Shown here piece after piece: positions 1-41,204 of a DNA stretch of 41,204 bases. Position 1 is the stretch's first letter. Each line of letters begins with the position of its first letter. The translations under genes and the position numbers were made by a program. The notes beneath the pieces were generated by a model that was given only the letters and a program-made list of their open reading frames with translations, was not told the origin of the DNA and did not search any database. The stretch comes from a virus: the IMG/VR virus record IMGVR_UViG_3300031227_000130, positions 1 through 41,204 of that record; one strand, given 5' to 3'.

Positions 1-47
1 TTCCTTCATGTCTTGCGCGTCATCCTTCCCCCTTGACACAAAGCAAA

Positions 48-78
48 CCCCTAGCGCGGCCGAAGGCCATGCTAGGGG
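48..78 (-). terminator. Hairpin, likely rho-independent terminator
   Basis: CCCCTAGC (48-55) pairs with GCTAGGGG (71-78). An inner GGCC (58-61) pairs with GGCC (65-68) around a GAA loop, giving a nearly continuous stem of about 13 pairs. On the minus strand the stem is followed by a T-rich tract (TTTGCTTTG). It lies downstream of the last leftward gene (224-583) and so could end that transcript. The same position, in front of the terminase genes on the circle, also allows a role in the packaging site. Confidence 0.5.
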
Positions 79-90
79 AGTATGGGAATC

Positions 91-123
91 GGGTCCCGAG
101 GCGTGGGTTAAACCTCGGGACCC
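91..123. other. Perfect 11-bp inverted repeat hairpin
   Basis: GGGTCCCGAGG (91-101) pairs exactly with CCTCGGGACCC (113-123) around an 11-base loop. No T tract follows on either strand, so it is not a classical terminator. Sitting next to the first hairpin in the terminal repeat, it is a candidate cos/pac or terminase-binding element, or an RNA end-protecting stem. The repeat copy is at 41120-41152. Confidence 0.6.
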
Positions 124-156
124 ATCGGGCATGACGCGGCGAAACGCATCACCTAC

Positions 157-185
157 AGCTTACAGCATCCCACCCGTGCCGTCAA
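157..185 (-). promoter_or_regulatory. Weak candidate late promoter
   Basis: On the minus strand TTGACG (185-180) is followed after exactly 17 bases by TAAGCT (162-157). The -35 box matches consensus at 5 of 6 positions; the -10 box is poor (3 of 6). It would transcribe leftward through both terminal-repeat hairpins and, on the circular genome, into the terminase genes. Stretch 1-223 holds no other gene I can support. Confidence 0.25.
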
Positions 186-223
186 GCCCTCCCCTCTTTC
201 GCTAACCCAGAATAGTTTACAAC

Positions 224-583
224 TCAGCCCGGCACATCGGCCGGGTCTTCGGTCTCTCCCGCTTGCACCTCCTCAGAGGTTTCCTGTAGGCCCTCCACCG
301 ACTCAACACCTGCCCTATAGCCCAGGGTCCACGCAGCGCCCATGAATGACAGGACGCCCTTCTTGCCATAGTCCTGGCCCGAGATCTCAGCCATCGCCTC
401 TGCCATACTCCACTCTGCGAACAGGCTCACAAAGTCTGCGTGGTCCAGGAGGCCCTCTACAGATTGCAGGTATACCAGCGCCTCATTGAATGTCGGCAGC
501 CGGTCCGTTATCGCCGCTGCTATCTCCGGCATCTTGACCTTCAGCTTCTCAGCTCTTCGCCGTTCCGCCCGCGTACCCATCAT
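224..583 (-). CDS. Hypothetical protein, last gene of the early block
   Basis: 119 residues, not recognised. The basic N-terminus (GTRAERRRAEKLKVK) precedes mostly helical, acidic sequence and a Glu-rich tail. An ATG at 595 is in frame, but its codons are themselves the ribosome site (GGAGGAGG), so the start is placed at the ATG at 583; the adjacent ATG at 580 is equally possible. The gene follows the small membrane protein genes and is the last before the terminal-repeat hairpins. Confidence 0.65.
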   Translation of the reverse strand: MMGTRAERRRAEKLKVKMPEIAAAITDRLPTFNEALVYLQSVEGLLDHADFVSLFAEWSMAEAMAEISGQDYGKKGVLSFMGAAWTLGYRAGVESVEGLQETSEEVQAGETEDPADVPG

Positions 584-604
584 GCCCTCCTCCATTCGCT
601 AATT

Positions 605-781
605 TCACCCCCCGCAGGCCATCCGCATCCCGACCCCGATCCCCATCAACAGCCCGCCCACCCACATTCCCACCAACAGCCCCAGAAGGACCGGCCACGG
701 TATCGCCCCCGAGCTGGCAGGTCCCGCCTCCAGCTTCTCCATTTGCCAACGCTCCAGCTCCTCCATCTCCGCATTGCCCAT
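605..781 (-). CDS. Small single-span membrane protein A
   Basis: 58 residues. A charged amphipathic N-terminus (EMEELERWQMEKLE) is followed by one long hydrophobic segment rich in Gly and Met (about residues 28-52) and ends MACGG. The start ATG at 781 follows AAGGAGGGCGTG, a good ribosome site. It is the third of three consecutive tiny membrane proteins (963-1052, 796-966, 605-781), an arrangement that recalls phage lysis cassettes. No holin family can be assigned by eye, and other envelope functions are possible. Confidence 0.6.
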   Translation of the reverse strand: MGNAEMEELERWQMEKLEAGPASSGAIPWPVLLGLLVGMWVGGLLMGIGVGMRMACGG

Positions 782-795
782 CACGCCCTCCTTCG

Positions 796-966
796 TTATT
801 GAATGAGACAGCCCAGGAGGATCAGAGCCCCCAGGACCAGCACCGCCAACAGAACCCACGCTCCAACCTCGAGAACCCACCACCGCCGTTTGGCCCTGCG
901 TTGCCCCTCCCCCTTGCGAGGCACCCACCGCGGGTCCCAGCTATCGCCGTTGCTCCACCACCTCAT
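796..966 (-). CDS. Small single-span membrane protein B
   Basis: 56 residues. The Trp- and Arg-rich N-terminal half (MRWWSNGDSWDP, then KRRWW) is followed by one strongly hydrophobic helix (about residues 33-55) ending GCLIQ. The ATG overlaps the stop of the upstream 29-residue gene as ATGA, indicating translational coupling. Positive charge before the helix suggests an N-in orientation. Function unknown; candidate holin or pinholin component. The case for it being real rests on the coupling and the tight packing between its neighbours. Confidence 0.5.
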   Translation of the reverse strand: MRWWSNGDSWDPRWVPRKGEGQRRAKRRWWVLEVGAWVLLAVLVLGALILLGCLIQ

Positions 967-1052
967 AGCATCTTCAGTTTGACTATGAGCATAGCCGCAC
1001 CAAACGCCAGGAGCAGAATCAAACCCATTCTCAGCATCTCACCGGTGAGCAT
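963..1052 (-). CDS. 29-residue membrane peptide
   Basis: Encodes MLTGEMLRMG followed by a hydrophobic helix (residues 10-25) and KLKML. The ribosome site GGGGGAGGG lies 3-8 bases before the ATG. It overlaps the next gene by ATGA at 963-966. It is too short for family assignment; it could be a coupled leader peptide or a small toxin- or holin-like peptide. Confidence 0.4.
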   Translation of the reverse strand: MLTGEMLRMGLILLLAFGAAMLIVKLKML

Positions 1053-1093
1053 AATCCCTCCCCCGTGCCGTTGTTCTTTCTAGACATGTGTTT

Positions 1094-1471
1094 TCAGACT
1101 CCAAACAGGTCTGCCCAGAAGCGACCCACTCGTGAGAGTCGCTTGTACTTCACGAGATCGAAGACCGGCTGGTGTATGGTCAGAACGAGCCCCTTGTGAT
1201 CCCTGGGCGACTGGCACTCACACGATATGTAGCCTTCCAGCGACGAGCGCTCATAGTAGAGTGGCGCACCAGGCACATCCCGGAGGCGCCAGGACTCCAT
1301 GTCGCCTCCGTCCTCTGGGTGCGGCTCTGGATCCAGGTAGCCCTTTCGTGGGCGCGTTGAATCGTCGATCCTGAGTAGCCAGGCGACAGCAGGCTTTTTC
1401 TCCGCATGTTCGCCCAGTCGAAACAGGAACTCCCGGTCACGCTCCTCAATGTCGCTGAAACGGCTCATCAT
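1094..1471 (-). CDS. Hypothetical protein
   Basis: 125 residues, no family recognised. It begins MMSRFSDIEERDREF and contains a mixed charged core with three Trp and a CEC pair in the C-terminal half (ISCECQSPRDHKG). The start at 1471 (or 1468) follows GGGGGATGAC; a longer in-frame start at 1612 would overlap the upstream gene by 110 bases and lacks support. It lies between the PAPS-reductase-like gene and the small membrane genes. Confidence 0.6.
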   Translation of the reverse strand: MMSRFSDIEERDREFLFRLGEHAEKKPAVAWLLRIDDSTRPRKGYLDPEPHPEDGGDMESWRLRDVPGAPLYYERSSLEGYISCECQSPRDHKGLVLTIHQPVFDLVKYKRLSRVGRFWADLFGV

Positions 1472-1502
1472 GTCATCCCCCGTGCCGCGCCCATTGTGCC
1501 GG

Positions 1503-2276
1503 TCATTCGAATAACACCATCTGGCCCTCAGGCGCGCCATGCTTGCCATAGATCCACCAGTCCATAACCCCTTGGGCGTTCTGCCATGTCGTCGTCTTGC
1601 CCATCTCCTCACGCCTCTTGAGCATAAGATCGAATGTCCGCAGCCAAATTACATAGAATCGCGGCCAGCGGGCGGCGTCGCGTTCCATGCCTCGCTTGTT
1701 GCCCATCGGGCACATGACACAGCCCAGGCGCTTGAATCCCTCGTCGTACAACGAACAGTATGGCAGCTCGCGGTCTCGAATGAACTCCCACACGTCGTCG
1801 TCCGACCAGTCAATGATCGGGTTCACCAACGAGCGATGCGTCGAGTAGCATGGCTCGACAAGTTTCCGCGTGTTCTTGCGCCTGGGTGACTCTGCCCAGC
1901 GGATGCCCGTGAGAACCTTGCGCCCCTCGCCGCCCCGCTCCTTGAGAGCACGACAGCAATAGCGTATGAGTCGGGTCGGTGGGCCGCCATCATGCACCAC
2001 GAGTTGGATCATCGTTTTCGGCGGTCTGTCCCAGGCCACGTCATTGTGGTGCTCTCGCATGAACCGCAACAGCTCCGGCGGGTCGACGGTCGTGACTGAG
2101 TAGTGCGCGTCGTACTTGACGCCCGCCTCGTCTGCCAGCGCCTTGAGCGTGATCGAGTCCTTGCCGCCGCTGAAGGCCAGATAGTAGCCCTCCTCCGGCT
2201 CGAATGAGCGCAACCGCTCGACAGCGATGGCTACGCGATCATAGATTCCGTCAAGGCGTGGCTCGATCAGCGCCAT
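1503..2276 (-). CDS. PAPS-reductase-family PP-loop protein
   Basis: 257 residues. It has the PP-loop SGGKDS at residues 36-41, which binds the adenylyl phosphate in ATP-pyrophosphatase/PAPS reductase folds. A central YCCRALKE...GIRWAESPRR block and a later CVMCPMGNKR pair (about residue 180) are typical of phage members and of the DndC-type relatives. Whether it reduces sulfate, thiolates a nucleic acid or does something else cannot be told from sequence. Family membership is strong; function is inferred. An APS-kinase-like domain is encoded at 26299-27348 in the same genome. Confidence 0.85.
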   Translation of the reverse strand: MALIEPRLDGIYDRVAIAVERLRSFEPEEGYYLAFSGGKDSITLKALADEAGVKYDAHYSVTTVDPPELLRFMREHHNDVAWDRPPKTMIQLVVHDGGPPTRLIRYCCRALKERGGEGRKVLTGIRWAESPRRKNTRKLVEPCYSTHRSLVNPIIDWSDDDVWEFIRDRELPYCSLYDEGFKRLGCVMCPMGNKRGMERDAARWPRFYVIWLRTFDLMLKRREEMGKTTTWQNAQGVMDWWIYGKHGAPEGQMVLFE

Positions 2277-2292
2277 GCTGCCCCTTCCCCGC

Positions 2293-3411
2293 TCACTCTA
2301 CCAACACCCGCACCCTTCCCGGAACCTCCATAACCGCGCCCACAGCTTTGGCAATCCGCCCGCTGAATCGTTGGTCGAGCATGGCCGCACATCGCCCATT
2401 CTTAGCCTTCACGCGGAGCGTCCCATGATCCCACGCTATAGGATAAGCCCCCTCTAGCCAGACTGGTTGGATCTCATCCCCAATATGCTCCAGCACCGCC
2501 GGCCAGGGGAACCCTTCCAGCTCCTTGGTCTTGAGATTGGTCCTGGGCTCGGGAGGTGGCTCGGGCTCGCGTTGCTCGTCTTGAATCCGTTCGCTGATAG
2601 CCCGCACATAGGCCCAGGACGTGGCCCCGGCAGCTCCGGCAGCCCTTAACGCATCGTAGGCCCCCTCATGCCCGAGGTCACCGATCAGTTCTTGTAGTTC
2701 TTGAGCGTTGATCGGCCCTTTGTTCGGGAATATAGATTCTGTTAGAGACCCCAATACTGGCAGCCAGTCCTCAGGACCCGCAGGGTCGGCCGGTTTACTC
2801 AGATCCGCAGCAGTAGCCAGCAATACCGGAATTCGGGCGGATCTGTCGGCCAGCACCAGCAGCGGCTCGCGGGCGGGCGACTGGATCTGCTGCTGCATCT
2901 GGTTCTCTTCTGCATCTGCATCTGCATCTGCATCTGCATCTGACCCGGACCTACTCCCGACTAACTCTGGACCTACTCCTGACCTACTCTGGACTAGCTC
3001 CTGACCTACTCTGGACTCACTCTCGACTAACTCTAGACCTGCTTTGGCCTCTGTCGGGACCTCCTCTTGCCCTGGCGGGGTTGGGTAGAGGCTTTCAGCC
3101 TCTTTGGAGGTGTCGCCCTGGTATTGGCTGAATGACGGGAGCCAGAAATACCGCCGGCCTTCCACTTCGTAGCGTTCGATCATTCCCCGACTATCGAACC
3201 ACCCCAGCGCCTCCTGAACCTGCGCCAGGGTCACATCCTCCCGCAGTGGCATAGCCCGCGCCTTGACCCAGCCAGAATTGTCGAGCCCCCGGCCTTCGCA
3301 GTCCATTGCCAGGGGCAGCAGCAGCCACAAGACTCGTGTGAAATCGTCCGGCATCTCATTGATGTCTAGTGACTCGGTCGCCTTGACGTGTAGCTTGCGC
3401 CATCTGGGCAT
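2293..3411 (-). CDS. Replication initiator (DnaD-type N-terminus)
   Basis: 372 residues. Residues 1-95 look like the winged-helix start of phage replication organisers: an FTRVLWLLLPLAMDCEGRG region, then a wing ending RRYFWLPSFSQYQG. A low-complexity middle carries ELVxSRSGVG repeats and a (DA)5 run, both produced by nucleotide repeats. The last 75 residues (FPWPAVLEHIG ... GTLRVKAKNG ...) resemble domain I of DnaA, a helicase-contact domain; that match is tentative. It probably melts the origin and recruits host helicase, since no helicase gene is present. The internal 11-bp array suggests the origin lies in this gene, as in lambda O. Confidence 0.7.
   Translation of the reverse strand: MPRWRKLHVKATESLDINEMPDDFTRVLWLLLPLAMDCEGRGLDNSGWVKARAMPLREDVTLAQVQEALGWFDSRGMIERYEVEGRRYFWLPSFSQYQGDTSKEAESLYPTPPGQEEVPTEAKAGLELVESESRVGQELVQSRSGVGPELVGSRSGSDADADADADAEENQMQQQIQSPAREPLLVLADRSARIPVLLATAADLSKPADPAGPEDWLPVLGSLTESIFPNKGPINAQELQELIGDLGHEGAYDALRAAGAAGATSWAYVRAISERIQDEQREPEPPPEPRTNLKTKELEGFPWPAVLEHIGDEIQPVWLEGAYPIAWDHGTLRVKAKNGRCAAMLDQRFSGRIAKAVGAVMEVPGRVRVLVE
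2911..2942. repeat. Hexanucleotide repeat (TGCATC)5
   Basis: Five perfect tandem copies of TGCATC plus TG, encoding an Asp-Ala run on the minus strand within the initiator gene. The six-base unit keeps the reading frame when copy number changes, so length variation is tolerated. It directly adjoins the 11-bp array. Confidence 0.95.
2947..3045. repeat. Nine 11-bp iteron-like direct repeats, candidate origin
   Basis: The 99 bases divide into nine contiguous 11-base units without gaps. Examples are GGACCTACTCC (2947, 2969), CGACTAACTCT (2958, 3024) and TGACCTACTCT (2980, 3002). All units share GAC at positions 2-4, and seven share an ACTC core. Three units make 33 bases, so the encoded protein repeats every 11 residues. 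One unit per helical turn would place initiator sites on one face of the DNA. I infer an origin of replication inside the initiator gene; a purely protein-level repeat is the alternative. Confidence 0.65.
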
Positions 3412-3460
3412 TAGGTTACCCCCAGTGCGCCCTGATTATCTGTCAACATGTCGCCCCTTT

Positions 3461-3596
3461 GCTTTGGTTCGCTTCGCTATGCTGCGCTCTGCTCTGCTCC
3501 GCTGGGCTAAGCTGCGCTTCGTCCATGCCCGCGCTCAGGACTCGAACCTGACGGACCATTCGCGGGCCTTTGCTTTGCTTCGCTCGGCTTAGCTTC
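3461..3596. repeat. GCTNN pentanucleotide array in two blocks
   Basis: From 3461 to 3520, twelve consecutive 5-base units start with GCT, with one exception (GGTTC at 3466). From 3572 to 3596 five more follow (GCTTT, GCTTC, GCTCG, GCTTA, GCTTC). The two blocks bracket the hairpin at 3527-3567. The array fills the 200-base gap between the initiator gene and its upstream neighbour. No open frame explains the five-base period. It could be a protein-binding scaffold, part of the origin, or an RNA spacer. Confidence 0.8.
3527..3567 (-). ncRNA. tRNA acceptor/T-arm-like minihelix
   Basis: Read on the minus strand: a 7-base arm GCCCGCG, nine linker bases, T-stem TCAGG, loop TTCGAGT, stem CCTGA, one base, then CGCGGGC pairing perfectly with the first arm. 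The 5-bp stem with a seven-base TTCGAGT loop is a canonical tRNA T-arm, and the 7-bp outer stem has acceptor length. D and anticodon arms are absent, so this is not a functional tRNA. It may be a tRNA relic, an attachment-site remnant, or a minimal RNase P/tRNA-enzyme substrate in the transcript. Confidence 0.5.
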
Positions 3597-3612
3597 GGCT
3601 GCGTACACCGTC

Positions 3613-4119
3613 TCAGGCCGCCACCCTCTCCAGTTTCGTGATGGCGTCCTGTAGCGGACCCTCTGTCACTTGCTCCACTTCAGCGATGTGCCTATACTGA
3701 CGCAACCGCCGTTGACAACCAATCAACTCCTGGCGCTCGCGTTCTATGATCTGGGCCATCCACTCAGCCTCTCGTGCTGCCATGTCGATGGTCACGTATT
3801 GCGCCGTGGACTCCTCGCCCTCTTCCGGCTCGATGACTATGCGGTGAATGGCCTTGATAGGCTCCTCACCCTCAACGAACTGGACGCGGATATTGCGCAT
3901 GTAGTAGAGCGCCTGCCCTCGCCGGTAGAGATTCGCCGCTTCTGCGTCGCCCCACTCGAAAAACCGATGTAGCGGCGACGTGTCCCTCTGTGCCTCTTTC
4001 AGCACGGCCTCCGGTGACAATTCCTGGTTCTCAGCCAAGGCCACAAAGCACTCACCCAACACCTGCGCATCGTTCCCCGTGAACCGAGCCCCCGGTGCTA
4101 CAAAGTATGTCGTGCCCAT
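3613..4119 (-). CDS. Conserved-type phage protein of unknown function
   Basis: 168 residues. The central segment SPLHRFFEWGDAEAANLYRR with the following QALYYMRNIRVQF resembles a motif seen in many phage early proteins (His-x2-Phe-x-Trp-Asp, then Arg/Gln-Ala helices); no activity is known to me. The C-terminal half is helical and charged with an ERERQELIGCQRRLRQ coil. The ATG is 6 bases after GGAGG and lies inside the end of the upstream gene (22-base overlap), so the two are co-translated. Confidence 0.7.
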   Translation of the reverse strand: MGTTYFVAPGARFTGNDAQVLGECFVALAENQELSPEAVLKEAQRDTSPLHRFFEWGDAEAANLYRRGQALYYMRNIRVQFVEGEEPIKAIHRIVIEPEEGEESTAQYVTIDMAAREAEWMAQIIERERQELIGCQRRLRQYRHIAEVEQVTEGPLQDAITKLERVAA

Positions 4120-4706
4120 GCGTCCTCCTTGATCGTGAATGTACCAAACGGGCCACTACACTCTGGCCGCCACGCGCCTACGCCCGGATAGCTGCCCGCT
4201 TTTTGCAGCAGATTCAAAACCTGCTCAGTGGTAGTAAACTCGGGGTCGAACTCGATGCTCAGCGTTATCTCCCATCCTCGAAACATGGGCCGATAGAATA
4301 CCGTCCCAGTGCGGCCCTGTAGTTTCCCAAAGTCTCGCCGCATCGTCGGCTCACTTCCCCGAATCTCCAGCATCCCCTCCCCATCCCCTATGACCTGGAA
4401 TGCTGCACGCGCATCCGTCATGGCCATGTCGGTACTCTTGGCTGCTCGCACCATAGCCTTCTTGAACGCTATGGCCGGGAACCCATGACCGCCCGAAGCG
4501 GTCTTGTGCAGATGTCCTAGCCATTCCGATTCCGGATCTCGTGGCTCTTTGCCCCCGACTTTTCGCCCTTGCTGCTTGGCCTCCATCTGATCCAAGTCTT
4601 TGTCCAAGATCTTGTTGACCAGTAAGGGCGTCTTGCCCTTCACGGTTATCGCGAATACGCCGCTCTTGGTTGCGTAGACCTTTGGGTTCTCATTTGCCTG
4701 TGCCAC
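4098..4706 (-). CDS. RAMP-like phage protein, possible nucleic-acid binder
   Basis: 202 residues from a GTG start at 4706, chosen because GGGGAGGA lies 5 bases upstream; the in-frame ATG at 4853 lies upstream of the predicted transcription start. It has an N-terminal beta strand with TPLLVNK, a middle PAIAFKKAMVRAAK helix, and a C-terminal glycine-rich block PGVGAWRPECSGPFGTF. This order resembles phage early proteins that carry a RAMP (Cas-repeat-type) G-rich loop and is often near RecT. I infer a single-strand DNA or RNA binding role, with low certainty. It is first in its transcript and preceded by a structured leader. Confidence 0.6.
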   Translation of the reverse strand: MAQANENPKVYATKSGVFAITVKGKTPLLVNKILDKDLDQMEAKQQGRKVGGKEPRDPESEWLGHLHKTASGGHGFPAIAFKKAMVRAAKSTDMAMTDARAAFQVIGDGEGMLEIRGSEPTMRRDFGKLQGRTGTVFYRPMFRGWEITLSIEFDPEFTTTEQVLNLLQKAGSYPGVGAWRPECSGPFGTFTIKEDAWARHTL

Positions 4707-4836
4707 GTCATTCCTCCCCGCTACAATGAGAAAACCAGAGCGACAACTGAAAGGAGGTTGCTGCGAGGCTGCCCCCGTGTCGCTCTGGTTTGACTCCAAA
4801 AAAACTACCTCCGTCAGATCGGATAACAGCCTCGCA
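4707..4836 (-). promoter_or_regulatory. Structured 5' leader with alternative pairings
   Basis: Four arms alternate along the leader. CAGCCTCGCA (4827-4836, the predicted 5' end) is complementary to TGCGAGGCTG (4762-4771). TGTCGCTCTGGTTT (4778-4791) is complementary to AAACCAGAGCGACA (4732-4745). The arms interleave, so both helices together would be a pseudoknot. In RNA sense, ACCTCC (4758-4753) can pair with GGAGGT (4812-4807) or with the ribosome site GGGGAGGA (4719-4712). Translation of the 4098-4706 gene could therefore be switched. No known riboswitch class is recognised. Confidence 0.6.
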
Positions 4837-4841
4837 CTCCC

Positions 4842-4870
4842 ATCATAACACACAATCCAGATTCTGTAAA
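4842..4870 (-). promoter_or_regulatory. Sigma70-type promoter for the 4098-4706 gene
   Basis: On the minus strand TTTACA (4870-4865), exactly 17 bases, then TATGAT (4847-4842). Each box matches the consensus at 5 of 6 positions. Transcription should begin near 4835, at the first arm of the structured leader. It lies between the stop of the upstream gene (4894) and the leader. Confidence 0.75.
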
Positions 4871-4893
4871 GGGTTTATTCATCCCGCTTCGCC

Positions 4894-5172
4894 TCAGATG
4901 TCAAGCACCGCGTCGATCTGGGCGACCAGGACATCTAGATGGACATACTCTCCGTCCTGGCCACGCTCGCCCATCACCCACATTCGCATCTTTCGCAGCA
5001 GGGCCAGCGCCGCGTCGCGCTCTGTCCGCAGTTCCCGAATGTCGCGATTGTGCAACTCGACCAAGTTGTCTGCCCAGCCTTCGTCTGAGTCCTCAGACAG
5101 CTCGCCGACCGTTGCGCCCGTGTCCACGTCAAGCATCAGCGGACCATTCTCCTCTAGCATCCACTCAGCCAT
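4894..5172 (-). CDS. Small acidic helical protein
   Basis: 92 residues, not recognised. An acidic N-terminal half (MAEWMLEENG, then SEDSDEG) leads into a coiled-coil-like helix with heptad spacing (NRDIRELRTERDAALALLRKM). The start ATG at 5172 follows GAAGGGGTGACGGG; longer in-frame starts would run through the membrane protein gene upstream. It is last in its transcript before the promoter at 4842. Confidence 0.65.
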   Translation of the reverse strand: MAEWMLEENGPLMLDVDTGATVGELSEDSDEGWADNLVELHNRDIRELRTERDAALALLRKMRMWVMGERGQDGEYVHLDVLVAQIDAVLDI

Positions 5173-5192
5173 CCCGTCACCCCTTCTCAGCT

Positions 5193-5489
5193 TCACCACC
5201 AATCCCAACACCAATCGTAGCGGTTCGTGAGTCGTTCGATGATCTTGAGCCAGCCAATAAGTAAAAGGACAATCACAATCACAGGAACCAGCAAAGTAAT
5301 TGCTATACGGCCGATGGTGATAGCGCCTGGCAACAACGCCAGAACCACCCCCCAAGCGCCCAACCCCAGCATCCCCAGCACCAACCCTCCCCCGTATGCC
5401 AAACACATGAGCGGAGAGGATAGCCCTTGCTTGCGCTTGTCAAATGTACCCCATAACGGCCCGAGCCGTTTCTCGCCCTGCGCCACCAT
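5193..5489 (-). CDS. Two-span membrane protein
   Basis: 98 residues. Two hydrophobic segments (about 28-52 and 57-80) flank a short PGAITIGR turn. The N-terminus is basic (VAQGEKRLG) and the tail is aromatic (YDWCWDWW). The start at 5489 follows AAGGAG at good spacing. Topology suits a class II holin, but there is no lysis neighbour. A membrane anchor for early phage functions is equally possible. Confidence 0.6.
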   Translation of the reverse strand: MVAQGEKRLGPLWGTFDKRKQGLSSPLMCLAYGGGLVLGMLGLGAWGVVLALLPGAITIGRIAITLLVPVIVIVLLLIGWLKIIERLTNRYDWCWDWW

Positions 5490-5503
5490 CCGGTTACTCC
5501 TTC

Positions 5504-5842
5504 TCAGCTCCGCCGCGAATGCGGCCGCCATCCCGAATTGTTGTGCGCAGCCGTCCGGCTCGCCAGCAGGTCCCGAGCGTCTGTCACCGATTCGATGCGA
5601 TAGCAGTAGCCTGGCACCGCGTCAAAGATGCGCTGCTCGGCCGTGGTCAGCTTGGCCCCCCGCCGCTTGACCTCCCAGAACATAGGCTCCCCGTACATGA
5701 ACACCCAGACGTCCAGGATCCCCGGATAGGTCGAGGTGACCACCCAGGAGACTGGCATCCCGTCCCGCCTGGCGTCCCGCAGGAACTCAACGATCGGCCC
5801 TTGATTGTCGTCAGCTTTTCCGGTCCCGTATCCGTGCGGCAT
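5504..5842 (-). CDS. VRR-NUC-like PD-(D/E)xK nuclease
   Basis: 112 residues. The core GILDVWVFMYGEPMFWEVK, then a Lys-Leu-Thr-x2-Glu-Gln segment, fits the Asp ... Glu-x-Lys active site and following helix of small VRR-NUC/Holliday-junction-type nucleases. It probably acts in recombination or replication, with RecT as the partner annealing protein. The start is the ATG at 5842 after GGGGGCGGGGGTGATC. A diverged paralogue lies at 6331-6729. Confidence 0.6.
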   Translation of the reverse strand: MPHGYGTGKADDNQGPIVEFLRDARRDGMPVSWVVTSTYPGILDVWVFMYGEPMFWEVKRRGAKLTTAEQRIFDAVPGYCYRIESVTDARDLLASRTAAHNNSGWRPHSRRS

Positions 5843-5875
5843 GATCACCCCCGCCCCCACAGCATACCATAATCC

Positions 5876-6310
5876 TCAGTCGTCCGCAACCACCTCGGCG
5901 GGCTCCGCGATGAACTGCAGGTTCTCCAGGAGGTCGAACCCGTTAGGGCTTTCTCCTTCCCACGTCTGAGTGTGCCAGCCACAATTATAACGCCGCTTGT
6001 ATACCCGAGACCCCAGCTTCATCCGTCGCACCAGTGCACCTACCTTGGCGTCGGTCAGCATAGCCGTGGCCCTGCCCTCCCAATAGCCCTCGCCGTTGCC
6101 CGCATACGAGATTTGCCTACGTTGTTCCTCGTTCTCCTCTCGCAGCCGCTCGTTCTCCTCTCGCAGCGTCGCCAGCTCGTCTTGCGGCGGGCTGCTATTC
6201 ATGCCATCGACCATACCCGCTGCGAATTGCAAACTTTCTGCTAGGATCCGAAACCACTGCGCTCCTTGAGTGTGTCCCGTCTCATATGCCGGACTCTTCT
6301 CGCCCATCAT
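5876..6310 (-). CDS. Coiled-coil protein of unknown function
   Basis: 144 residues. The first 55 include TGHTQGAQWFRILAESL; residues about 57-80 form a charged coil (LREENERLREENEEQRRQ); the C-terminal part is rich in Tyr, Trp and Gly. The start at 6310 follows GGAGG; a longer in-frame ATG at 6388 would overlap the upstream gene. It sits between two nuclease-like paralogues, which is the only hint of role. I do not recognise a family. Confidence 0.6.
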   Translation of the reverse strand: MMGEKSPAYETGHTQGAQWFRILAESLQFAAGMVDGMNSSPPQDELATLREENERLREENEEQRRQISYAGNGEGYWEGRATAMLTDAKVGALVRRMKLGSRVYKRRYNCGWHTQTWEGESPNGFDLLENLQFIAEPAEVVADD

Positions 6311-6330
6311 GCCTCCGTTATTCCGCAACC

Positions 6331-6729
6331 CTATGTCGTCGGCCATCCATCCACCAGCCTCAGGTAGCGCGGCGGTGGGTCGAGCCACTTCACATGGAAA
6401 TGCAGGAGATTGCGGACGTGGCTAATGTGATGAACCATCACGCAATACTGCGACGCTCGCTGAATCCCCGCATACTCTGCCGGGGTCAGTTGCGCCTCCT
6501 TGGTCTTGACCTTCCAAAACAGAGGCTGCCCGTTGGCGATCACAACGTAGTCCATGAACCCGAGCGACTCCGGCAGCCGGATATAGACCATGCTCTCGTC
6601 CTCGGCCGCGTACTCAGCCAGCACCCCCTCGATCTCCTCGAGGAGCTCGTCCCTTGTAGGCGCTGGCGTGTCGTCATATTCGTATATTGTCCACTTCCCG
6701 TCCTCGTCTTGCTTCCTAACCTTTGGCAT
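6331..6729 (-). CDS. Degenerate nuclease-like paralogue
   Basis: 132 residues. The segment FMDYVVIANGQPLFWKVK with a Gln-Leu-Thr-x2-Glu motif aligns residue for residue with FWEVK...KLTTAEQ of the 5504-5842 protein, but the expected catalytic Glu is Lys. It also has a longer acidic N-terminus (about 55 residues). It may be an inactive regulator or DNA-binding partner of its paralogue. The ATG overlaps the upstream stop as TAATG. Confidence 0.55.
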   Translation of the reverse strand: MPKVRKQDEDGKWTIYEYDDTPAPTRDELLEEIEGVLAEYAAEDESMVYIRLPESLGFMDYVVIANGQPLFWKVKTKEAQLTPAEYAGIQRASQYCVMVHHISHVRNLLHFHVKWLDPPPRYLRLVDGWPTT

Positions 6730-7022
6730 TACTCCCCTTGTCCCGGCCGGACCGACATCACACAAAACAGCAACGTCCCGGACTCCTCATGCCAGCCCAC
6801 CCGCATCTCCACCGCCTCTCTAGGGCCACCCCAACTAAACGGCTCCAGGTGGACCTGCCCGACGGTTTGCTCCCCCTCGCCCCTGGGGCCCCAGCGTATG
6901 AACATCGTCTTGCAGGCTTTGACCCTCTCCACCGCGTTGACCCGGTGGGGCTTGACGCCCCACCGGCCAGCCGCAAAGATTCCCAGCCGCACCAGCCAGG
7001 TCCCGCGCGCTTTAGAGCTCAT
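6729..7022 (-). CDS. Hypothetical beta-rich protein
   Basis: 97 residues, no family recognised. Alternating hydrophobic strands (TWLVRLGIFAAGRW, TMFIRWGP, VHLEPFSWGG, GTLLFCVMSVRPG) suggest a small beta sandwich or barrel. The ATG at 7022 overlaps the stop of the upstream membrane protein gene as ATGA, so it is translationally coupled to it. Confidence 0.6.
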   Translation of the reverse strand: MSSKARGTWLVRLGIFAAGRWGVKPHRVNAVERVKACKTMFIRWGPRGEGEQTVGQVHLEPFSWGGPREAVEMRVGWHEESGTLLFCVMSVRPGQGE

Positions 7023-7366
7023 GGGCTCCAGGTCCCCCCAGCTCGCACCTTGCGGAGCCGGTTGGCCCTCTGCCTCAGGGCGATTAGCCCGTGCGCAGCC
7101 TCGCCGGCCAGAATGGCCGTGGTGATCACCCGGAACGCTTCCTTGGCCCACTCATACCATGGGCCCGGCGGAATCTCGATTGCTCGCAGCACCAGCGCCA
7201 GGCCCCAGATCACTGCCGCGATACCTCCGGAGATGCCCCAGGCTGTGAATCGCTTCCAGTCTGGCATGATCTTTCGCAGCTTCTTGACTCGCTCCATGAG
7301 CAGGAAACACAGGACCCCCGAACCGGGCCCCTCTAGCGCCCACACTACAAACGCTGCAAATGTCAT
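7019..7366 (-). CDS. Holin-like membrane protein
   Basis: 115 residues with two or three hydrophobic segments: residues 2-24, 43-66 (TAWGISGGIAAVIWGLALVL) and a weaker third near 82-97. A basic loop (RVKKLRKIMPDWKR) and a basic C-terminus (RQRANRLRKVRAG) separate and follow them. Size and topology fit phage holins, but it lies in the early region and no endolysin is adjacent. The ribosome site AAGGAGGA precedes the ATG. The 72-base gap upstream (7367-7438) holds no clear promoter. Confidence 0.5.
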   Translation of the reverse strand: MTFAAFVVWALEGPGSGVLCFLLMERVKKLRKIMPDWKRFTAWGISGGIAAVIWGLALVLRAIEIPPGPWYEWAKEAFRVITTAILAGEAAHGLIALRQRANRLRKVRAGGTWSP

Positions 7367-7438
7367 CGAATCCTCCTTAAAATCAATCCTAGTGGCACCT
7401 TTTGGGCCTCTTTTGTCAGCTTTCGCCCCCTTTCTCTG

Positions 7439-7714
7439 TCACCACATTGCAACCAAGGTTCGCGACTTAGGCCCATAGCCTGCACGATATGCATCATGCA
7501 GCGCGTCATAGCGATGGCTCAACCGTATGGTTTCTGTCTTTGCCATAACGGGAGCAGGGTCGCTAAACACGCCGGGGATATTGTCCGGCTCGATGAACAC
7601 GTCTATGGTTGGCTCGGGCCAGTTCACGAACCAGACGGTTGTCTCCCATGGCAGACGGTGTGCGATTAGTAATCGCCATGCCAATTGATGTTGGTCCTCA
7701 CTGGATAGAATCAT
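7439..7714 (-). CDS. Hypothetical protein
   Basis: 91 residues, no family recognised. A helical N-terminus (SSEDQHQLAWRLLIAHRLPW) is followed by TTVWFVNWPEPTIDVFIEPDN, probably strands, and a Tyr-rich C-terminus. AGAGGAGGGAGC precedes the ATG. It overlaps the upstream zinc-ribbon gene by ATGA. Confidence 0.55.
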   Translation of the reverse strand: MILSSEDQHQLAWRLLIAHRLPWETTVWFVNWPEPTIDVFIEPDNIPGVFSDPAPVMAKTETIRLSHRYDALHDAYRAGYGPKSRTLVAMW

Positions 7715-7911
7715 GCTCCCTCCTCTCTCTTGCGCCAGCCGCCGCAGGTGTAATTGGCCGCCCTGGCTGGCAGCATCGGGAGCCGCGGGGGCCTGATACA
7801 GACTCCGTTACCAAGCCATGTCCTCTCTTGAAAATACTCGCACATCATGCATCGTCTCTTTTTGCCGGACGTCTGTCGGTATCGCTTCCGAGGTCCCAGC
7901 GGCCTACCCAT
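7711..7911 (-). CDS. Small four-cysteine (zinc-ribbon-like) protein
   Basis: 66 residues. A basic N-terminus (RKRYRQTSGKKRR) is followed by CMMC and, after 13 and 16 residues, two more Cys that could complete a metal site. Such proteins often bind DNA or RNA, or act as adaptor subunits in phage early operons. It overlaps both neighbours (stop/start ATGA downstream, 8 bases upstream). Confidence 0.55.
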   Translation of the reverse strand: MGRPLGPRKRYRQTSGKKRRCMMCEYFQERTWLGNGVCIRPPRLPMLPARAANYTCGGWRKREEGA

Positions 7912-8356
7912 CCTCGGGCACCTCGGGGAGGTTCCTTGCTACGAATGCCTGGCCGTGGCTGACCAGGCGCCCAGGCCCTCCGAGGACCTCCGCGACTTTG
8001 ACGTACCTATCGTAACTCAGGATTAGAGCCCCTGGGCATCGGAGGTGGGCCCACTTCGTCGCGTCCTCCTCGTCATAATCCCAGCGGGACCTGACCCGAA
8101 CGGTCACCCCTGGAGCAGGTTTCTTGTCGCCGTCGATCGCAAAGGCTGTCACTGCCCACTGCGTTAGCGCCGAATAGGCTGCGGTCTCTGCGTCTCTGGC
8201 CTTCTCGTACTGGTCAGCCAGGGCCCTATACGCCAGCCCCTCCGGCGTGGCCTTCTGTGCCTCAAACGCTAGCACCTCGGCCTCCTTCACTTCCTTGGCC
8301 CTCTCCCGCGCCGCCGCCAACTCTCGAACCAACTGCTTGCCTTCGTCCCTCATCAT
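7904..8356 (-). CDS. Conserved-type phage early protein
   Basis: 150 residues. The N-terminal half is a long helix (GKQLVRELAAARERAKEVKE...). The C-terminal half has PAPGVTVRVRSRWDYDEEDATKWA, a beta/helix block I recognise from uncharacterised phage proteins near recombination genes (Lys-x-Pro-Gly-Val ... Tyr-Asp ... Ala-x2-Trp-Ala). Possibly a nuclease-inhibitor or recombination accessory, but no activity is established. The ATG at 8356 overlaps the stop of the 34-residue membrane peptide. Confidence 0.65.
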   Translation of the reverse strand: MMRDEGKQLVRELAAARERAKEVKEAEVLAFEAQKATPEGLAYRALADQYEKARDAETAAYSALTQWAVTAFAIDGDKKPAPGVTVRVRSRWDYDEEDATKWAHLRCPGALILSYDRYVKVAEVLGGPGRLVSHGQAFVARNLPEVPEDG

Positions 8357-8457
8357 GCCCTCCGCATTCCCCAGCGCACAAAACCCGCTAGAATCCCGAA
8401 CAGGACCCCTCCCACATAGGCCCCAAGGATCGCCAGTCGAATGGCTGTGTCAGTCAT
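8353..8457 (-). CDS. 34-residue single-span membrane peptide
   Basis: MTDTAIR is followed by a Gly-rich hydrophobic helix (about residues 8-27) and a basic end (RWGMRRA). The ATG lies inside the end of the upstream gene and its stop overlaps the downstream start as ATGA. The unbroken overlap chain is the main evidence that it is translated. Function unknown. Confidence 0.45.
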   Translation of the reverse strand: MTDTAIRLAILGAYVGGVLFGILAGFVRWGMRRA

Positions 8458-8632
8458 CGTCGTCCGGGTTCTCCTCGGACTTGACCTCAGGCGACACCTT
8501 TAGTTCCAGGGATGGCGTCCCTATGGAAACCGTACACCCCAGGGCCCGCAGCTCTTTAGCCATCTCGTCCAGACTGCTCAGAACCTCCCCTAGGGTTTTC
8601 CCCTGCTTCACGCGCCTACTTGTAGAAATCAC
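8450..8632 (-). CDS. Small acidic-tailed protein
   Basis: 60 residues from a GTG at 8632, preceded by GGGGGAG at 5-base spacing. A helical segment (KTLGEVLSSLDEMAKELRALG) is followed by strands and an Asp-rich end (ENPDDDD). The start lies 17 bases inside the end of the upstream gene. Not recognised; an acidic DNA-mimic or a partner of RecT are conceivable but unsupported. Confidence 0.45.
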   Translation of the reverse strand: MISTSRRVKQGKTLGEVLSSLDEMAKELRALGCTVSIGTPSLELKVSPEVKSEENPDDDD

Positions 8633-8870
8633 CGATTCTCCCCCTTCTCTGTTCGTCCGCCGGCCGTGCGTCTTTGCGGATGCGCTCCTGGAGGTGGGCC
8701 GTGATCCGGCCCACCTCGGGCCCTGTTGCCAGGGCCCCGAACATCTCCTGAACTGCGAACCGAATCTGGTCGTAGCTCATGCTCCGCAGGCTCTCACCGT
8801 ACCGCGCCCAGACATCCCGCGCCCATGCCCCGTAGCTGTCGACCTGATCCGAATCCAGCCGTTTGACCAT
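8616..8870 (-). CDS. Small helical protein downstream of recT
   Basis: 84 residues. The acidic/aromatic start (VDSYGAWARDVWARYGESL) is followed by YDQIRFAVQEMFGAL and a basic C-terminus (QERIRKDARPADEQRRGR). The ATG overlaps the recT stop as TGATG, so the two are translationally coupled, suggesting an accessory role in recombination. Family not recognised. Confidence 0.6.
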   Translation of the reverse strand: MVKRLDSDQVDSYGAWARDVWARYGESLRSMSYDQIRFAVQEMFGALATGPEVGRITAHLQERIRKDARPADEQRRGRIGDFYK

Positions 8871-9892
8871 CAGAACCCCATCTGGCCTGTGGGGATGCCC
8901 GCTACTTCCGGCTGCGCCTCTGAGAGCTCGTTCAGGATGAACTGGACCTCGGCCTTGGCACCCTCGCCACCCTCGCCATTAGAACCCAGCAACCACTGCT
9001 CCAGCGCCCAAATCATGGCCGCGCTCAGCTCGCTCGCGCTGGTCACACCGCACAGGTATTCCATGATCCCGTGGCGCATTTTGCTGATCTGCGCCGCGGT
9101 CCCCTTAGGTAGAGTCCCCCGGAGGAGGATTGTCAGATTCCGCTGGGCCGCCTGCAGAGCTTTACCGCTGGTCTTGGGCCCGTCATAGCCATCGACCAGC
9201 TCGGTGATGCGCGCCTTGACCGCGGCCGCCGGATACGGCCTGCCGCCGTTGGTGGGCTCGCCCTCCTGCCCCTCGCCCTCCTGATCCCCTGCCCCAGGCT
9301 CGGAGCCTGTGACGTCCCGCGCCGTAGAATTGATCACCTCCTCCGGGTCGTCCTCAGTGACTTCGTCGCCCAGCTCATCAGTTGTCCGGAACCCCTGCAG
9401 GACCTCGGCCGCGTATAGCCGGATACCTACTGACAGGCACCGATAACTGAGCATGACTGCGGGCATCGTCCTCCATGCCGGTTTCTCTTTGCGGTTCCCC
9501 GCTGTTCCCGTCGTTGTCCAGCCGGCCGCGTCGCACTCCTCGCGCGTCACCGTTAGCTCCTGGGTTACGCCCCCCTTCGGCTTGAATAGAATTGTGCACA
9601 CCTTCGCGGTTCTGGTCTGTACCGTGTAGCTGTGGCCGTAGGACCTGTAGAGCGCCCCCATCAGCTTGGCCGTCATTCCGACTTGGCCATGGACCACGTA
9701 CAACTCCCTCAGGCTTTGCATGGCCCCCAGGCCTAGCTCGCGCCCGGCCACCATGATGATTACCGCCTTCTGCGGCGTGTCCAATGATACCGGGAGCAGC
9801 CCTTGATCGAACACTATCTCCGCCAGATCCCGCATCTCTGCCAGGCTGAACACTGCCGGAACGTCCCGCCGTACCGTCACCTGATTACCCAT
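8870..9892 (-). CDS. recT: RecT-family single-strand annealing protein
   Basis: 340 residues. The core VAGRELGLGAMQSLRELYVVHG, then TAKLMGALYRSYGHSYTVQ and the later WRTMPAVMLSYRCLSVGIRLY, matches phage RecT/Bet-type annealases. These coat single-stranded DNA and anneal it to complementary strands during recombination or replication. A glycine/glutamate-rich linker (about residues 190-215) separates a helical C-terminal region. No RecE/YqaJ exonuclease is adjacent; the small nuclease at 5504-5842 is the nearest candidate. The start overlaps the XRE gene by 8 bases. Confidence 0.8.
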   Translation of the reverse strand: MGNQVTVRRDVPAVFSLAEMRDLAEIVFDQGLLPVSLDTPQKAVIIMVAGRELGLGAMQSLRELYVVHGQVGMTAKLMGALYRSYGHSYTVQTRTAKVCTILFKPKGGVTQELTVTREECDAAGWTTTGTAGNRKEKPAWRTMPAVMLSYRCLSVGIRLYAAEVLQGFRTTDELGDEVTEDDPEEVINSTARDVTGSEPGAGDQEGEGQEGEPTNGGRPYPAAAVKARITELVDGYDGPKTSGKALQAAQRNLTILLRGTLPKGTAAQISKMRHGIMEYLCGVTSASELSAAMIWALEQWLLGSNGEGGEGAKAEVQFILNELSEAQPEVAGIPTGQMGF

Positions 9893-10148
9893 TCCCGAGC
9901 AGCTCCTTTCCAGTTGCCTCAGTCTCTTCCAACACCCGCTCCATGTGAAACATCGCGGCCGGGGTGAATCCCAGCGCCTCGATGATTCTCAGTCGCATCT
10001 CCTCACTGACTTCGATTCTCCCGCTCTCCCACTGCGAAATCAAAGATGCCGAGACTCCCAGCATTGCCGCCAGCTCTTTGTTTGATACCTCCCGGATCTT
10101 ACGCATTGCTCGCTGCTTCGCAATCCATACCTTGTCAATTATGATCAT
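9885..10148 (-). CDS. XRE-family helix-turn-helix regulator
   Basis: 87 residues. The segment about 20-55 (VSNKELAAMLGVSASLISQWE with SGRIEVSEEMRLRII) is a standard XRE/Cro-CI helix-turn-helix, likely DNA-binding. With only a short helical tail it resembles a Cro-size regulator more than a full CI repressor. It is the first gene after the promoter at 10184-10212, whose spacer contains a perfect palindrome, so autoregulation is likely. It probably also acts on the promoter at 11083-11111. Confidence 0.8.
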   Translation of the reverse strand: MIIIDKVWIAKQRAMRKIREVSNKELAAMLGVSASLISQWESGRIEVSEEMRLRIIEALGFTPAAMFHMERVLEETEATGKELLGNG

Positions 10149-10183
10149 CCTCCTGCCCCTCCCTTGTTTGCTGGCTCACTCTT

Positions 10184-10212
10184 AATATATCATACGGGTA
10201 TACCCCTGTCAA
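10184..10212 (-). promoter_or_regulatory. Strong promoter with palindromic operator
   Basis: Minus-strand TTGACA (10212-10207), 17 bases, then TATATT (10189-10184). The spacer contains the perfect palindrome GGGTATACCC (10196-10205) followed by CCGTATGATAT. A bound regulator would block polymerase directly. CCGTATGRTAT recurs at the same place in the promoter at 11083-11111. The -35 box begins just downstream of the 10216-10563 gene's stop. Confidence 0.85.
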
Positions 10213-10215
10213 GGG

Positions 10216-10563
10216 TTAAGCGAATCTGGCCCGCTCAATCGCTGACAGGTCGCTCCGCCTGACCACCCCTGCCCGCATCTCAGCCCTGCACCAGTCGCAG
10301 ATCCCGAGCTCCCGAACGATCAAGAACCCGCACCGTGGGCATCGCATCATCTCGGGAGGTATTACGATCGTGCTGCGTCTAGCAACCTGGCGCTCTGGTG
10401 TCCAACTGCTCCAGTGGTAGATCGTTGACCTCGCCATCCCCAGCAGCGAGCCCAACCGCCGATCTGAAACCAGACTCTTGAGGTAGACTATCTCCTCGTG
10501 CAAAGCCTGTCGCTGTTCCTGCGTGTAGTTCTTGCGCCGCCGTGTCCGCGGTGTCTTAGCCAT
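10216..10563 (-). CDS. HTH plus zinc-ribbon protein, putative regulator
   Basis: 115 residues. A very basic N-terminus (KTPRTRRRKNYTQEQRQ) leads to a helix-turn-helix-like RRLGSLLGMARSTIYHW (about 36-55). A CPRC ... CDWC four-cysteine ribbon lies near residues 80-98. It likely binds DNA as an early regulator. The ATG at 10563 follows AGG at 6 bases; an in-frame GTG at 10575 is less well supported. It overlaps the upstream gene by 8 bases. Confidence 0.6.
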   Translation of the reverse strand: MAKTPRTRRRKNYTQEQRQALHEEIVYLKSLVSDRRLGSLLGMARSTIYHWSSWTPERQVARRSTIVIPPEMMRCPRCGFLIVRELGICDWCRAEMRAGVVRRSDLSAIERARFA

Positions 10564-10741
10564 CGGGAGCCTCACTTACCCGCGTCGCCCTAGTCGCCGC
10601 GCTCAATGGGCTCACATTCGTCTCGTACCATTTCTCATAGGGGCGATCTGGCAACCCCCGTCCCTGTGTCTGTGGCATCTGCTCCAGCCATTCCCCCACC
10701 TGCGTGAGCCACTGGCTGAAACTCATCTGTCTGTAGATCAT
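10556..10741 (-). CDS. Small hypothetical protein
   Basis: 61 residues. An aromatic helical start (MIYRQMSFSQWLTQVGEWLEQ) is followed by a polar tail. The start is taken at 10741, just after AGGGGGGCGGA; a start at 10765 would put the inverted repeat inside the coding region. No family recognised. Confidence 0.5.
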   Translation of the reverse strand: MIYRQMSFSQWLTQVGEWLEQMPQTQGRGLPDRPYEKWYETNVSPLSAATRATRVSEAPDG

Positions 10742-10755
10742 TCCGCCCCCCTTGA

Positions 10756-10854
10756 GGCGGGGCACACTTCCCGCCCTGGCTGTGTGTCTTATCGCAGAAA
10801 ATCATCGAATGAGTTGACGAGCCCGCCTAGAGCGGCCGGGAAGTGTGCCCCGCC
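10756..10854. repeat. Perfect 18-bp inverted repeat
   Basis: GGCGGGGCACACTTCCCG (10756-10773) is exactly complementary in reverse to 10837-10854, with a 63-base spacer. The right arm codes for part of the upstream protein's C-terminus; the left arm lies just before the ribosome site of the 10556-10741 gene. In RNA it would form a long hairpin between the two genes and could limit downstream translation. No T tract follows, so it is not a simple terminator. Confidence 0.8.
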
Positions 10855-11043
10855 AGAGGCCGCGCGAGGGGCTGGGTTGGCGTCGAATCGGCTATCAAAG
10901 CAGCAGCGTCCATTCTCTGAGACGAACATGCCGAGATCATTGCAGCAAACGTGTGCCCAACTCGACTCACTCTGGATTATATCGAGAGTGACGATCTCGA
11001 TTTCTTCGCCTTCTAGAATCGCCCTGATCTTGGACTCGTTCAT
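10789..11043 (-). CDS. First gene of an early transcript, hypothetical
   Basis: 84 residues. Strand-helix N-terminus (KIRAILEGEEIEIVTLDII), then Cys-rich SSWAHVCCNDLG ... GRCCFDSRF, then a low-complexity PAPRAASGGAHF and an acidic end. The two CC pairs might bind metal. It is the first gene behind the near-consensus promoter at 11083-11111, so it is probably made early and strongly. Function not recognised; an antirepressor or host-takeover protein is a guess from position only. Confidence 0.6.
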   Translation of the reverse strand: MNESKIRAILEGEEIEIVTLDIIQSESSWAHVCCNDLGMFVSENGRCCFDSRFDANPAPRAASGGAHFPAALGGLVNSFDDFLR

Positions 11044-11082
11044 CTCTGCCCTCCCTGTCCCCTCATCCCTTACTATACTATC

Positions 11083-11111
11083 ATTATACCATACGGTTAT
11101 AATATTGTCAA
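11083..11111 (-). promoter_or_regulatory. Consensus early promoter
   Basis: Minus-strand TTGACA (11111-11106), exactly 17 bases, and TATAAT (11088-11083), a full match to the sigma70 consensus. The spacer ends AACCGTATGG, closely matching the spacer of the 10184-10212 promoter (CCCGTATGA), so a shared regulator is likely. It drives 10789-11043 and probably the genes below. Confidence 0.9.
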
Positions 11112-11150
11112 GGGGTTGGGGGAGTCTATCCGTAAATACCCAGAACGCAA

Positions 11151-11176
11151 AGAGCCCGCCCCGGTGGGCAGGCTCT
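11151..11176 (-). terminator. Rho-independent terminator of the tail block
   Basis: On the minus strand AGAGCCTGCCC pairs with GGGCGGGCTCT (one G-T wobble) around the four-base loop ACCG and is followed by TTTGCGTT. It lies just after the stop at 11197 of the last late gene, and before the early promoter at 11083-11111. It separates late from early transcription. Confidence 0.75.
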
Positions 11177-11196
11177 GCGGACTTGGTGATTTCGCG

Positions 11197-11496
11197 CTAT
11201 GGTGCGGGTTGGCTGTCTAGCAGCCGCTCGATCCTCTCCAGCGTCGTGACGATGTGTACCGAAGTGGCCACCAGCCCAGCCATGTCGGCCTTCAGGTCTG
11301 TAACGCATTCGCGTAACACAATTAGCTCCGCGTCCTGTCGAGCGTTGATTGATTCCTGCGCCTGGACCCGAGCCTGCAACCCCCCGACCATGACGAAATA
11401 GGTGATCAGGACAATCAGCACGGGGACCACCACGGACAGAATCACTCTGGCCTGTGCCCAGGTCAGCACCCCATTTGTAGCCTTTCGGCTCGTCAT
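11197..11496 (-). CDS. Holin-like protein with one span and coiled coil
   Basis: 99 residues. One hydrophobic helix near 17-38 (ARVILSVVVPVLIVLITYFV) is followed by a long coil (ARVQAQESINARQDAELI, then LKADMAGLVATSVHIV...). Order is the reverse of XhlA (coil then span), but size and position after tail genes fit a holin or lysis accessory. The ATG at 11496 overlaps the lipoprotein stop as ATGA; an in-frame start at 11730 would lie wholly inside the lipoprotein gene and is rejected. Confidence 0.55.
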   Translation of the reverse strand: MTSRKATNGVLTWAQARVILSVVVPVLIVLITYFVMVGGLQARVQAQESINARQDAELIVLRECVTDLKADMAGLVATSVHIVTTLERIERLLDSQPAP

Positions 11497-12296
11497 CTGT
11501 TGCTCCTCCCCAGCGGGCTCAGCTCGGCCATTCGCCAGGGCTGCCCCTCCGGGTACGCTAGGACGGTCCCCCCACCGTCGAACACTTGGTAGTACAGGCT
11601 GACTATCGTCGTAGAATAGGTGACGGTCAGCGAAAACGGCGCGGTCACTGGGAGCCCTAGCCCCTCCTCTCTGGCATAGTCCCAGAACGGTCCCTCGATC
11701 TCGTCTAGCACATCCCCGACGAGCGAGCACTGGATGTCAAAGGCAACCGCGTCAGACACCCACCCTTCGGGCAGCCATTCGGTGACCGTCGGCGTCGGTG
11801 TAGCGGTGGGCATCGGCGTGGCGCTGCTCCACGGTGTAGGTTCTGCCCTGGTCACGTCGAGGTCCAGCCAGCAGTCAGCAATGGCCCAGTTGTCCCAGGG
11901 CACACAGAACGGATACGGGAGCGGCACCGCTATTCGCGATGGTGGCAGATACTCTAGCACGTAGCACCCCTCGCCCAGGCACAGCCGCAGATCGTAGGTG
12001 CTGGTAATGTTCTGGGTCTGGATCTCTACGATTCCGGTCCGGGCTCGCGGCTGATCTCCCTGCTCCGTAGAGTAGACCACCACCGACCCCCCGTACACCT
12101 CGGCCCCGTAATCGTCCCAGACCCGGCCGTGTATCCACACGGGAGCACATGGCCCCGCCGGTGTCGAGGTCGGCGCGGGGTTCTCATCATAGGCAACCCC
12201 CGCCTTGGTCTGGCACCCCTCAGGGCTGATCAGCGCCAGAAGCAGGAGCAGCACAACCCAGCTTGCCAGGTATCGCAGCCCCTTCCATGCTTTCAT
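11493..12296 (-). CDS. Putative exported lipoprotein
   Basis: 267 residues. The signal segment KAWKGLRYLASWVVLLLLLALI runs into SPEGC at residue 28, a loose lipobox (Pro-Glu-Gly-Cys), so lipidation is possible but not certain. The mature part has a Pro/Thr stretch (TPMPTATPTPT, near residue 165) and beta-rich Cys-containing segments. Such linkers are common in Chloroflexota surface proteins. It may act at the envelope in lysis or superinfection exclusion, or remain in the virion. Coupled to the holin-like gene. Confidence 0.65.
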   Translation of the reverse strand: MKAWKGLRYLASWVVLLLLLALISPEGCQTKAGVAYDENPAPTSTPAGPCAPVWIHGRVWDDYGAEVYGGSVVVYSTEQGDQPRARTGIVEIQTQNITSTYDLRLCLGEGCYVLEYLPPSRIAVPLPYPFCVPWDNWAIADCWLDLDVTRAEPTPWSSATPMPTATPTPTVTEWLPEGWVSDAVAFDIQCSLVGDVLDEIEGPFWDYAREEGLGLPVTAPFSLTVTYSTTIVSLYYQVFDGGGTVLAYPEGQPWRMAELSPLGRSNR

Positions 12297-12306
12297 GTCA
12301 GGTTGC

Positions 12307-41029: not shown

Positions 41030-41204
41030 TTCCTTCATGTCTTGCGCGTCATCCTTCCCCCTTGACACAAAGCAAACCCCTAGCGCGGCCGAAGGCCATG
41101 CTAGGGGAGTATGGGAATCGGGTCCCGAGGCGTGGGTTAAACCTCGGGACCCATCGAGCATGACGCGGCGAAACGCATCACCTACAGCTTACAGCATCCC
41201 ACCC
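41030..41204. repeat. Right copy of terminal direct repeat
   Basis: Repeats 1-175 with one mismatch (41157 A for G at 128). Contains the second copies of the two hairpins. See the left copy for interpretation. Confidence 0.9.

Follow-up and report, generated by a model that had tools for sequence, protein, structure and literature searches.

The Viral Interference Programmable Repeat (VIPR) system is a recently described CRISPR-like, RNA-guided phage weapon, known from SUSP1 and P. fulva and proposed as a forerunner of CRISPR (preprint PMC13142463). As defined in that preprint, the system combines the RAMP protein Vipr with a vap gene and with vrRNAs of alternating GGY and NN units, and VIPR arrays interspersed with hammerheads are also mentioned there (PMC13142463). 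The window, i.e., the whole 41,204-nt stretch analyzed here (positions 1 to 41,204 of IMG/VR virus record IMGVR_UViG_3300031227_000130), harbors a minus-strand locus that resembles the VIPR of SUSP1/P. fulva in its Vipr RAMP protein, its adjacent vap-like gene, its location in a phage genome, its same-strand period-5 array of a fixed triplet plus NN, and the long intergenic stretch before vipr. The locus differs in its triplet, which is AGC instead of the GGY of SUSP1, although the preprint allows for a related consensus (PMC13142463), and in the separation of its arrays by a tRNA-like minihelix. Moreover, the upstream stretch is a vrRNA in SUSP1, whereas it is a repeat-free, pseudoknot-capable leader here.

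Identity and genomic context of the VIPR locus

The gene vipr (4098..4706, minus strand) starts with GTG and encodes a RAMP-family Vipr protein of 202 aa. This Vipr homologue (P0001) had no match in Pfam or NCBIfam and matches phrog_4652. The SUSP1 Vipr (PDB 36pp) was matched at E 4.8e-9 by phmmer and at E 3.3e-59 with a profile, the latter having been built with a SUSP-type member included. The AlphaFold model of P0001 (pLDDT 91.5) has CRISPR RAMP subunits as its best PDB matches, e.g., Csm3 with E ~4e-6. The vap-like gene (3613..4119, minus strand; phrog_15946) adjoins vipr in relatives too, and its homologues were found in four of the five other VIPR records searched and also in actinophages. 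A VIPR array was defined as a fixed GGY-like triplet plus a variable NN in 9-16 units, near vipr and on the same strand. With AGC as the triplet, this pattern is seen on the minus strand in a candidate vrRNA of 12 AGC/NN units, one of them ACC (array 2, 3459..3518), which is the best pentanucleotide array of the window. A short and partly irregular AGCNN tract (array 1, 3570..3600) lies on the same strand. No exact 10-NN target of the array was found in the IMG/VR viral_contigs, and there was no clear self-target.

A scan of IMG/VR for AGCNN arrays led to many loci with Vipr homologues, and a separate scan by the Vipr protein led to 29 loci, in nearly all of which RGYNN arrays lie on the same strand. 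Two independent routes, by protein and by DNA pattern, therefore identify the locus, as judged from sequence, as a VIPR system. A single-sequence search of IMG/VR and GTDB found no close relatives of the Vipr protein. In the locus L132, guide-type arrays (1128-1526; vipr ORF start 208) and vipr lie on opposite strands, which sets this locus apart from almost all others.

Judged by terminase and replication gene, the closest phage relative is G001 (57-60%); beside its replication gene a different gene takes the place of VIPR, and the VIPR module is therefore a variable cassette. A 127-bp direct repeat occurs near both ends of the window (1-127 and 41030-41156), although the classification of the record is linear with no end repeats, and the contig may be close to a complete genome.

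Promoter and leader architecture

A sigma-70-type promoter matching 10 of 12 consensus positions precedes vipr at 4870-4842 (minus strand), with TTTACA (4870-4865) and TATGAT (4847-4842) separated by a 17-nt spacer and a TG before the -10 element. It is one of only three sites at 10/12 or better in positions 1-12500. The three minus-strand promoters (11111-11083, 10212-10184, and 4870-4842) share an ACCCTT(G/T)ACA (ACCCTTKACA) context and a TG-extended -10, and are likely an early promoter set. No other promoter-like site at 9/12 or better occurs on the minus strand between the promoter at 4870 and the arrays, and this promoter therefore probably drives the entire VIPR operon. The predicted transcription start is at 4836-4834, which corresponds to the first bases of a 10-nt arm, TGCGAGGCTG (arm a, 4836-4827).

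The transcript from this start would begin with a leader of ~128 nt, all on the minus strand, in which four segments are interleaved. Arm a is the perfect complement of CAGCCTCGCA (a', 4771-4762), and this segment is held in the 32-nt loop of a perfect 14-bp hairpin formed by AAACCAGAGCGACA (arm c, 4791-4778) and TGTCGCTCTGGTTT (arm c', 4745-4732). Segments arranged as a-c-a'-c' correspond to an H-type pseudoknot, and the helix energies are -18.7 kcal/mol for a/a' (10 bp) and -23.4 kcal/mol for c/c'. The 5' arm and the hairpin loop can thus form an H-type pseudoknot, and we infer its formation from this complementarity. Arm c' runs into a short U-rich stretch, UUUUCUC, in a terminator-like arrangement (feature span 4731..4745), and the hairpin ends 25 nt before the vipr start codon. 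The Shine-Dalgarno sequence of vipr, GGGGAGGA (4719-4712), precedes the GTG at 4706. Since the distance between the hairpin and the start codon leaves no room for a further promoter, the hairpin lies within vipr's own 5' UTR, and the leader is the 5' UTR of vipr.

The combination of both helices exceeds what is expected by chance. The interleaved score of a/a' plus c/c' is 62; when the intergenic region was shuffled 3000 times with dinucleotides preserved, the highest score was 44, and a 14-bp stem arose in 0/3000 shuffles. No other site in the 41-kb window has a better interleaved score. A count over 11416 stretches of 300 nt, taken from the window together with every locus fetched by that point, gave 12 (~0.1%) that scored 62 or higher, many of them of low complexity. 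Exact copies of arm a number just two in the window, namely arm a itself and the sequence complementary to a'. Among perfect inverted repeats whose arms lie no more than 90 nt apart, the leader hairpin ranks second in length across the window; the longest has 18 bp and a 63-nt gap and is located at 10756-10854, where the first gene downstream of the strongest promoter (11111) ends. The pseudoknot-free folding energy of the leader is ordinary (z = -1.6), and the corresponding fold has the hairpin without arm a.

These results bear out two claims of a preliminary description of this DNA made from sequence alone, namely a well-spaced promoter and, after it, a 14-bp hairpin whose loop can pair with a 10-base arm. 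Both helices are perfect, and 0/3000 shuffles equaled the pair. The description had also proposed that an ACCTCC segment pairs either with an upstream GGAGGT or with the ribosome site. These pairings are present but do not rise above chance. The segment b' (ACCTCC, 4758-4753) can pair with GGAGGT (b, 4812-4807) over 6 bp, with GGGGG (4776-4772), or, as CCTCC, with the GGAGG of the Shine-Dalgarno sequence (4717-4713) over 5 bp, and inverted repeats of at least 6 bp number three in such a stretch compared to 2.3 expected by chance.

Leaders of other VIPR loci were compared across ~60 distinct regions upstream of vipr. A high interleaved score that no shuffle reached was found in the window (62) and in the loci L060 (59) and L201 (52). 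In L060, a distant VIPR locus, the arm CTATGAGA pairs with the loop segment TCTCATAG of a hairpin of at least 16 bp, followed by TTTTTT and, ~20 nt on, by the ATG of vipr; the layout is that of the window leader, and the sequence is unrelated. L201 has a promoter-like site and interleaved perfect arms in a looser interleaved fold, then an array before vipr. Compared to the background frequencies, the recurrence in L060 and L201 is at most suggestive of a shared leader layout. Searches for relatives of these two leaders each gave back the same contig only, and no DNA homologues of the window leader were found in phages, plasmids, or the records of relatives. A structured leader is not a VIPR-wide feature, as most VIPR loci lack one. 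Hairpins ahead of vipr are mildly enriched (11/80 vs. 5.7% of controls, p = 0.013), and upstream of vipr the closer homologues (35-40% identity) carry at most a simple hairpin. In the locus L216 (~1590-1640), a guide array before vipr is followed by a compact H-type pseudoknot (GGCGA-TTGGC-TCGCC-GCCAA), which stands directly ahead of vipr and resembles the tail described for SUSP-clade vrRNAs.

Putative control of the VIPR operon by the leader

With moderate confidence, we regard the feature as a promoter with its structured 5' leader, serving a phage VIPR operon and acting in cis as an attenuator and/or a 5' clamp. Transcription from the promoter at 4870 would begin at or near arm a, which would then pair with the hairpin loop (a') to form the H-type pseudoknot. 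RNA polymerase would have to pass the hairpin and the U-rich stretch to make Vipr, and the leader may thereby throttle or condition readthrough into the operon; both termination and any trigger for it are putative. The paired 5' end may also shield the RNA from 5'-dependent decay. A regulatory role is plausible from the leader's place before the VIPR operon, and conditioned readthrough is favored because vipr can be made only from transcripts that pass the hairpin. Autoregulatory pseudoknot leaders occur in the 5' UTRs of genes for nucleic-acid-binding proteins, e.g., gene 32 of phage T4. The window leader resembles the gene 32 leader as a pseudoknot in a phage 5' UTR ahead of a gene for a nucleic-acid-binding protein, whereas the sequences are unrelated and the terminator-like hairpin is particular to the window.

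The position and pairing order of the leader could instead reflect a self-standing, trans-acting small RNA of ~105 nt (4836 to ~4728), located where SUSP1 has its upstream vrRNA and serving Vipr as a decoy or as a non-canonical RNA partner. Both its size and its position fit the upstream vrRNA of SUSP1 (PMC13142463) and the layout seen in SUSP2, and the hairpin with its U-rich end could set the 3' end. By our own reading, the guide tail of SUSP2 has the same a-c-a'-c' order (GTAG/CTAC and AGTCTCA/TGAGACT), as does the pseudoknot tail of SUSP-clade vrRNAs. However, the helices of these tails are 4-7 bp and follow repeats, whereas the leader has helices of 10 and 14 bp, lacks repeats, and directly follows a promoter. 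The region 4870-4707 contains no RGY/NN repeat tract, which rules out the leader as a vrRNA or guide RNA. The complementarity of the leader to the guide region is not unusual either; a leader-guide duplex pairs less well than most shuffles do. We therefore consider a small RNA unlikely. As a self-target of the array, the leader was likewise rejected, with no match above background at skips of 0-3.

It also seems doubtful that the structure is a plain stabilizing hairpin or an ordinary weak terminator in the 5' UTR, with a functionless match between arm and loop. Large hairpins do exist elsewhere in the genome, such as the inverted repeat at 10756-10854, and several actinophage relatives have GC-rich hairpins ahead of vipr, but a perfect 10-nt match linking the start site to the 32-nt loop is improbable by chance given that the combination was found in 0/3000 shuffles. 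Much less probable is a pair of DNA operators, in which a phage repressor would bind both TGCGAGGCTG, located at the start site, and the inverted copy of this sequence at ~+65. Arm a spans the transcription start and an HTH regulator gene is present at 10148-9885, whereas the two sister promoters and the rest of the window have no further exact copy of arm a, and operators would leave the 14-bp hairpin and its orientation toward the U-rich stretch unexplained. Least credible of all is a partly coding leader in which translation from TTG 4799, in an open frame leading into vipr with the SD-like GGAGGT 7 nt upstream, opens the hairpin, because an open 31-codon frame appears in 53% of shuffles, Vipr homologues begin near the GTG, the GC3 of the extension is lower than that of the gene (0.58 vs. 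0.65), and GTG 4706 has a strong SD of its own.

The leader is thus most likely an idiosyncratic, cis-acting control element. The preliminary description recognized no class for it, and indeed no Rfam family fits at either gathering or lax thresholds; among riboswitch and cis-regulatory classes there was no match at the gathering score, the best weak one being ncr1175 with 20 bits against a cut-off of 60. Its pseudoknot-capable, promoter-proximal leader stands, with pairing beyond chance, its putative regulated RNA switch is plausible only, and its ACCTCC alternatives fall away. That reading was made without the VIPR context, which makes the leader the control region of a VIPR operon.

tRNA-like minihelices and implications for VIPR expression

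Between the two repeat tracts lies a tRNA-like minihelix of 41 nt (3567-3527, minus strand) plus a 3' A (3526). It comprises a 7-bp acceptor-like stem (GCCCGCG/CGCGGGC), the linker AATGGTC, and the T-arm GGTTCGAGTCC, then the A. ARAGORN predicted no tRNA gene. Further copies were located by a motif and stem search, in which sequence within 130 nt of arrays made up ~3% of the bases searched. In Gordonia phage Trine (L048), three copies (1201-1242, 1322-1363, and 1431-1472) alternate with arrays, and others occur in L226 and L227 (4008-4048) and in L217 (Microbacterium ginsengisoli; 3825-3865), so that three lineages besides that of the window carry the element beside or between guide arrays. 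The linker is conserved and close to GAUGGUC. In a condensed alignment of six sequences, all pairs are kept in 6/6 and double changes occur in 7 of the 10 pairs, giving a covariation score of 0.74 compared to 0.24 in shuffles (0/500 as high); the alignment was built on the structure, and the covariation result therefore leans toward that structure. The minihelices look like guide-processing signals and are candidate substrates of RNase P and RNase Z. Guide arrays that alternate with structured RNA are also described in the preprint (PMC13142463), with the difference that the interspersed element is a hammerhead there and a tRNA-like minihelix in the window, Trine, L226/L227, and L217. The preprint's main text makes no mention of tRNA-like elements, and the minihelix finding may be more novel than the leader.

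A wider scheme, which we offer tentatively and rate as rather unlikely in its entirety, would have one promoter produce one VIPR transcript with two RNA devices, i.e., a 5' pseudoknot attenuator metering Vipr, perhaps under feedback control by the Vipr-guide complex, and minihelices directing guide excision by RNase P and RNase Z. The preprint's main text says little about how phages set the level of the Vipr-guide complex or how guides are excised from longer transcripts (PMC13142463). The locus provides a candidate for each, namely the promoter-proximal knot before vipr and the tRNA-like separators around the guide arrays, and the latter are also present in Gordonia phage Trine, a phage available in culture.
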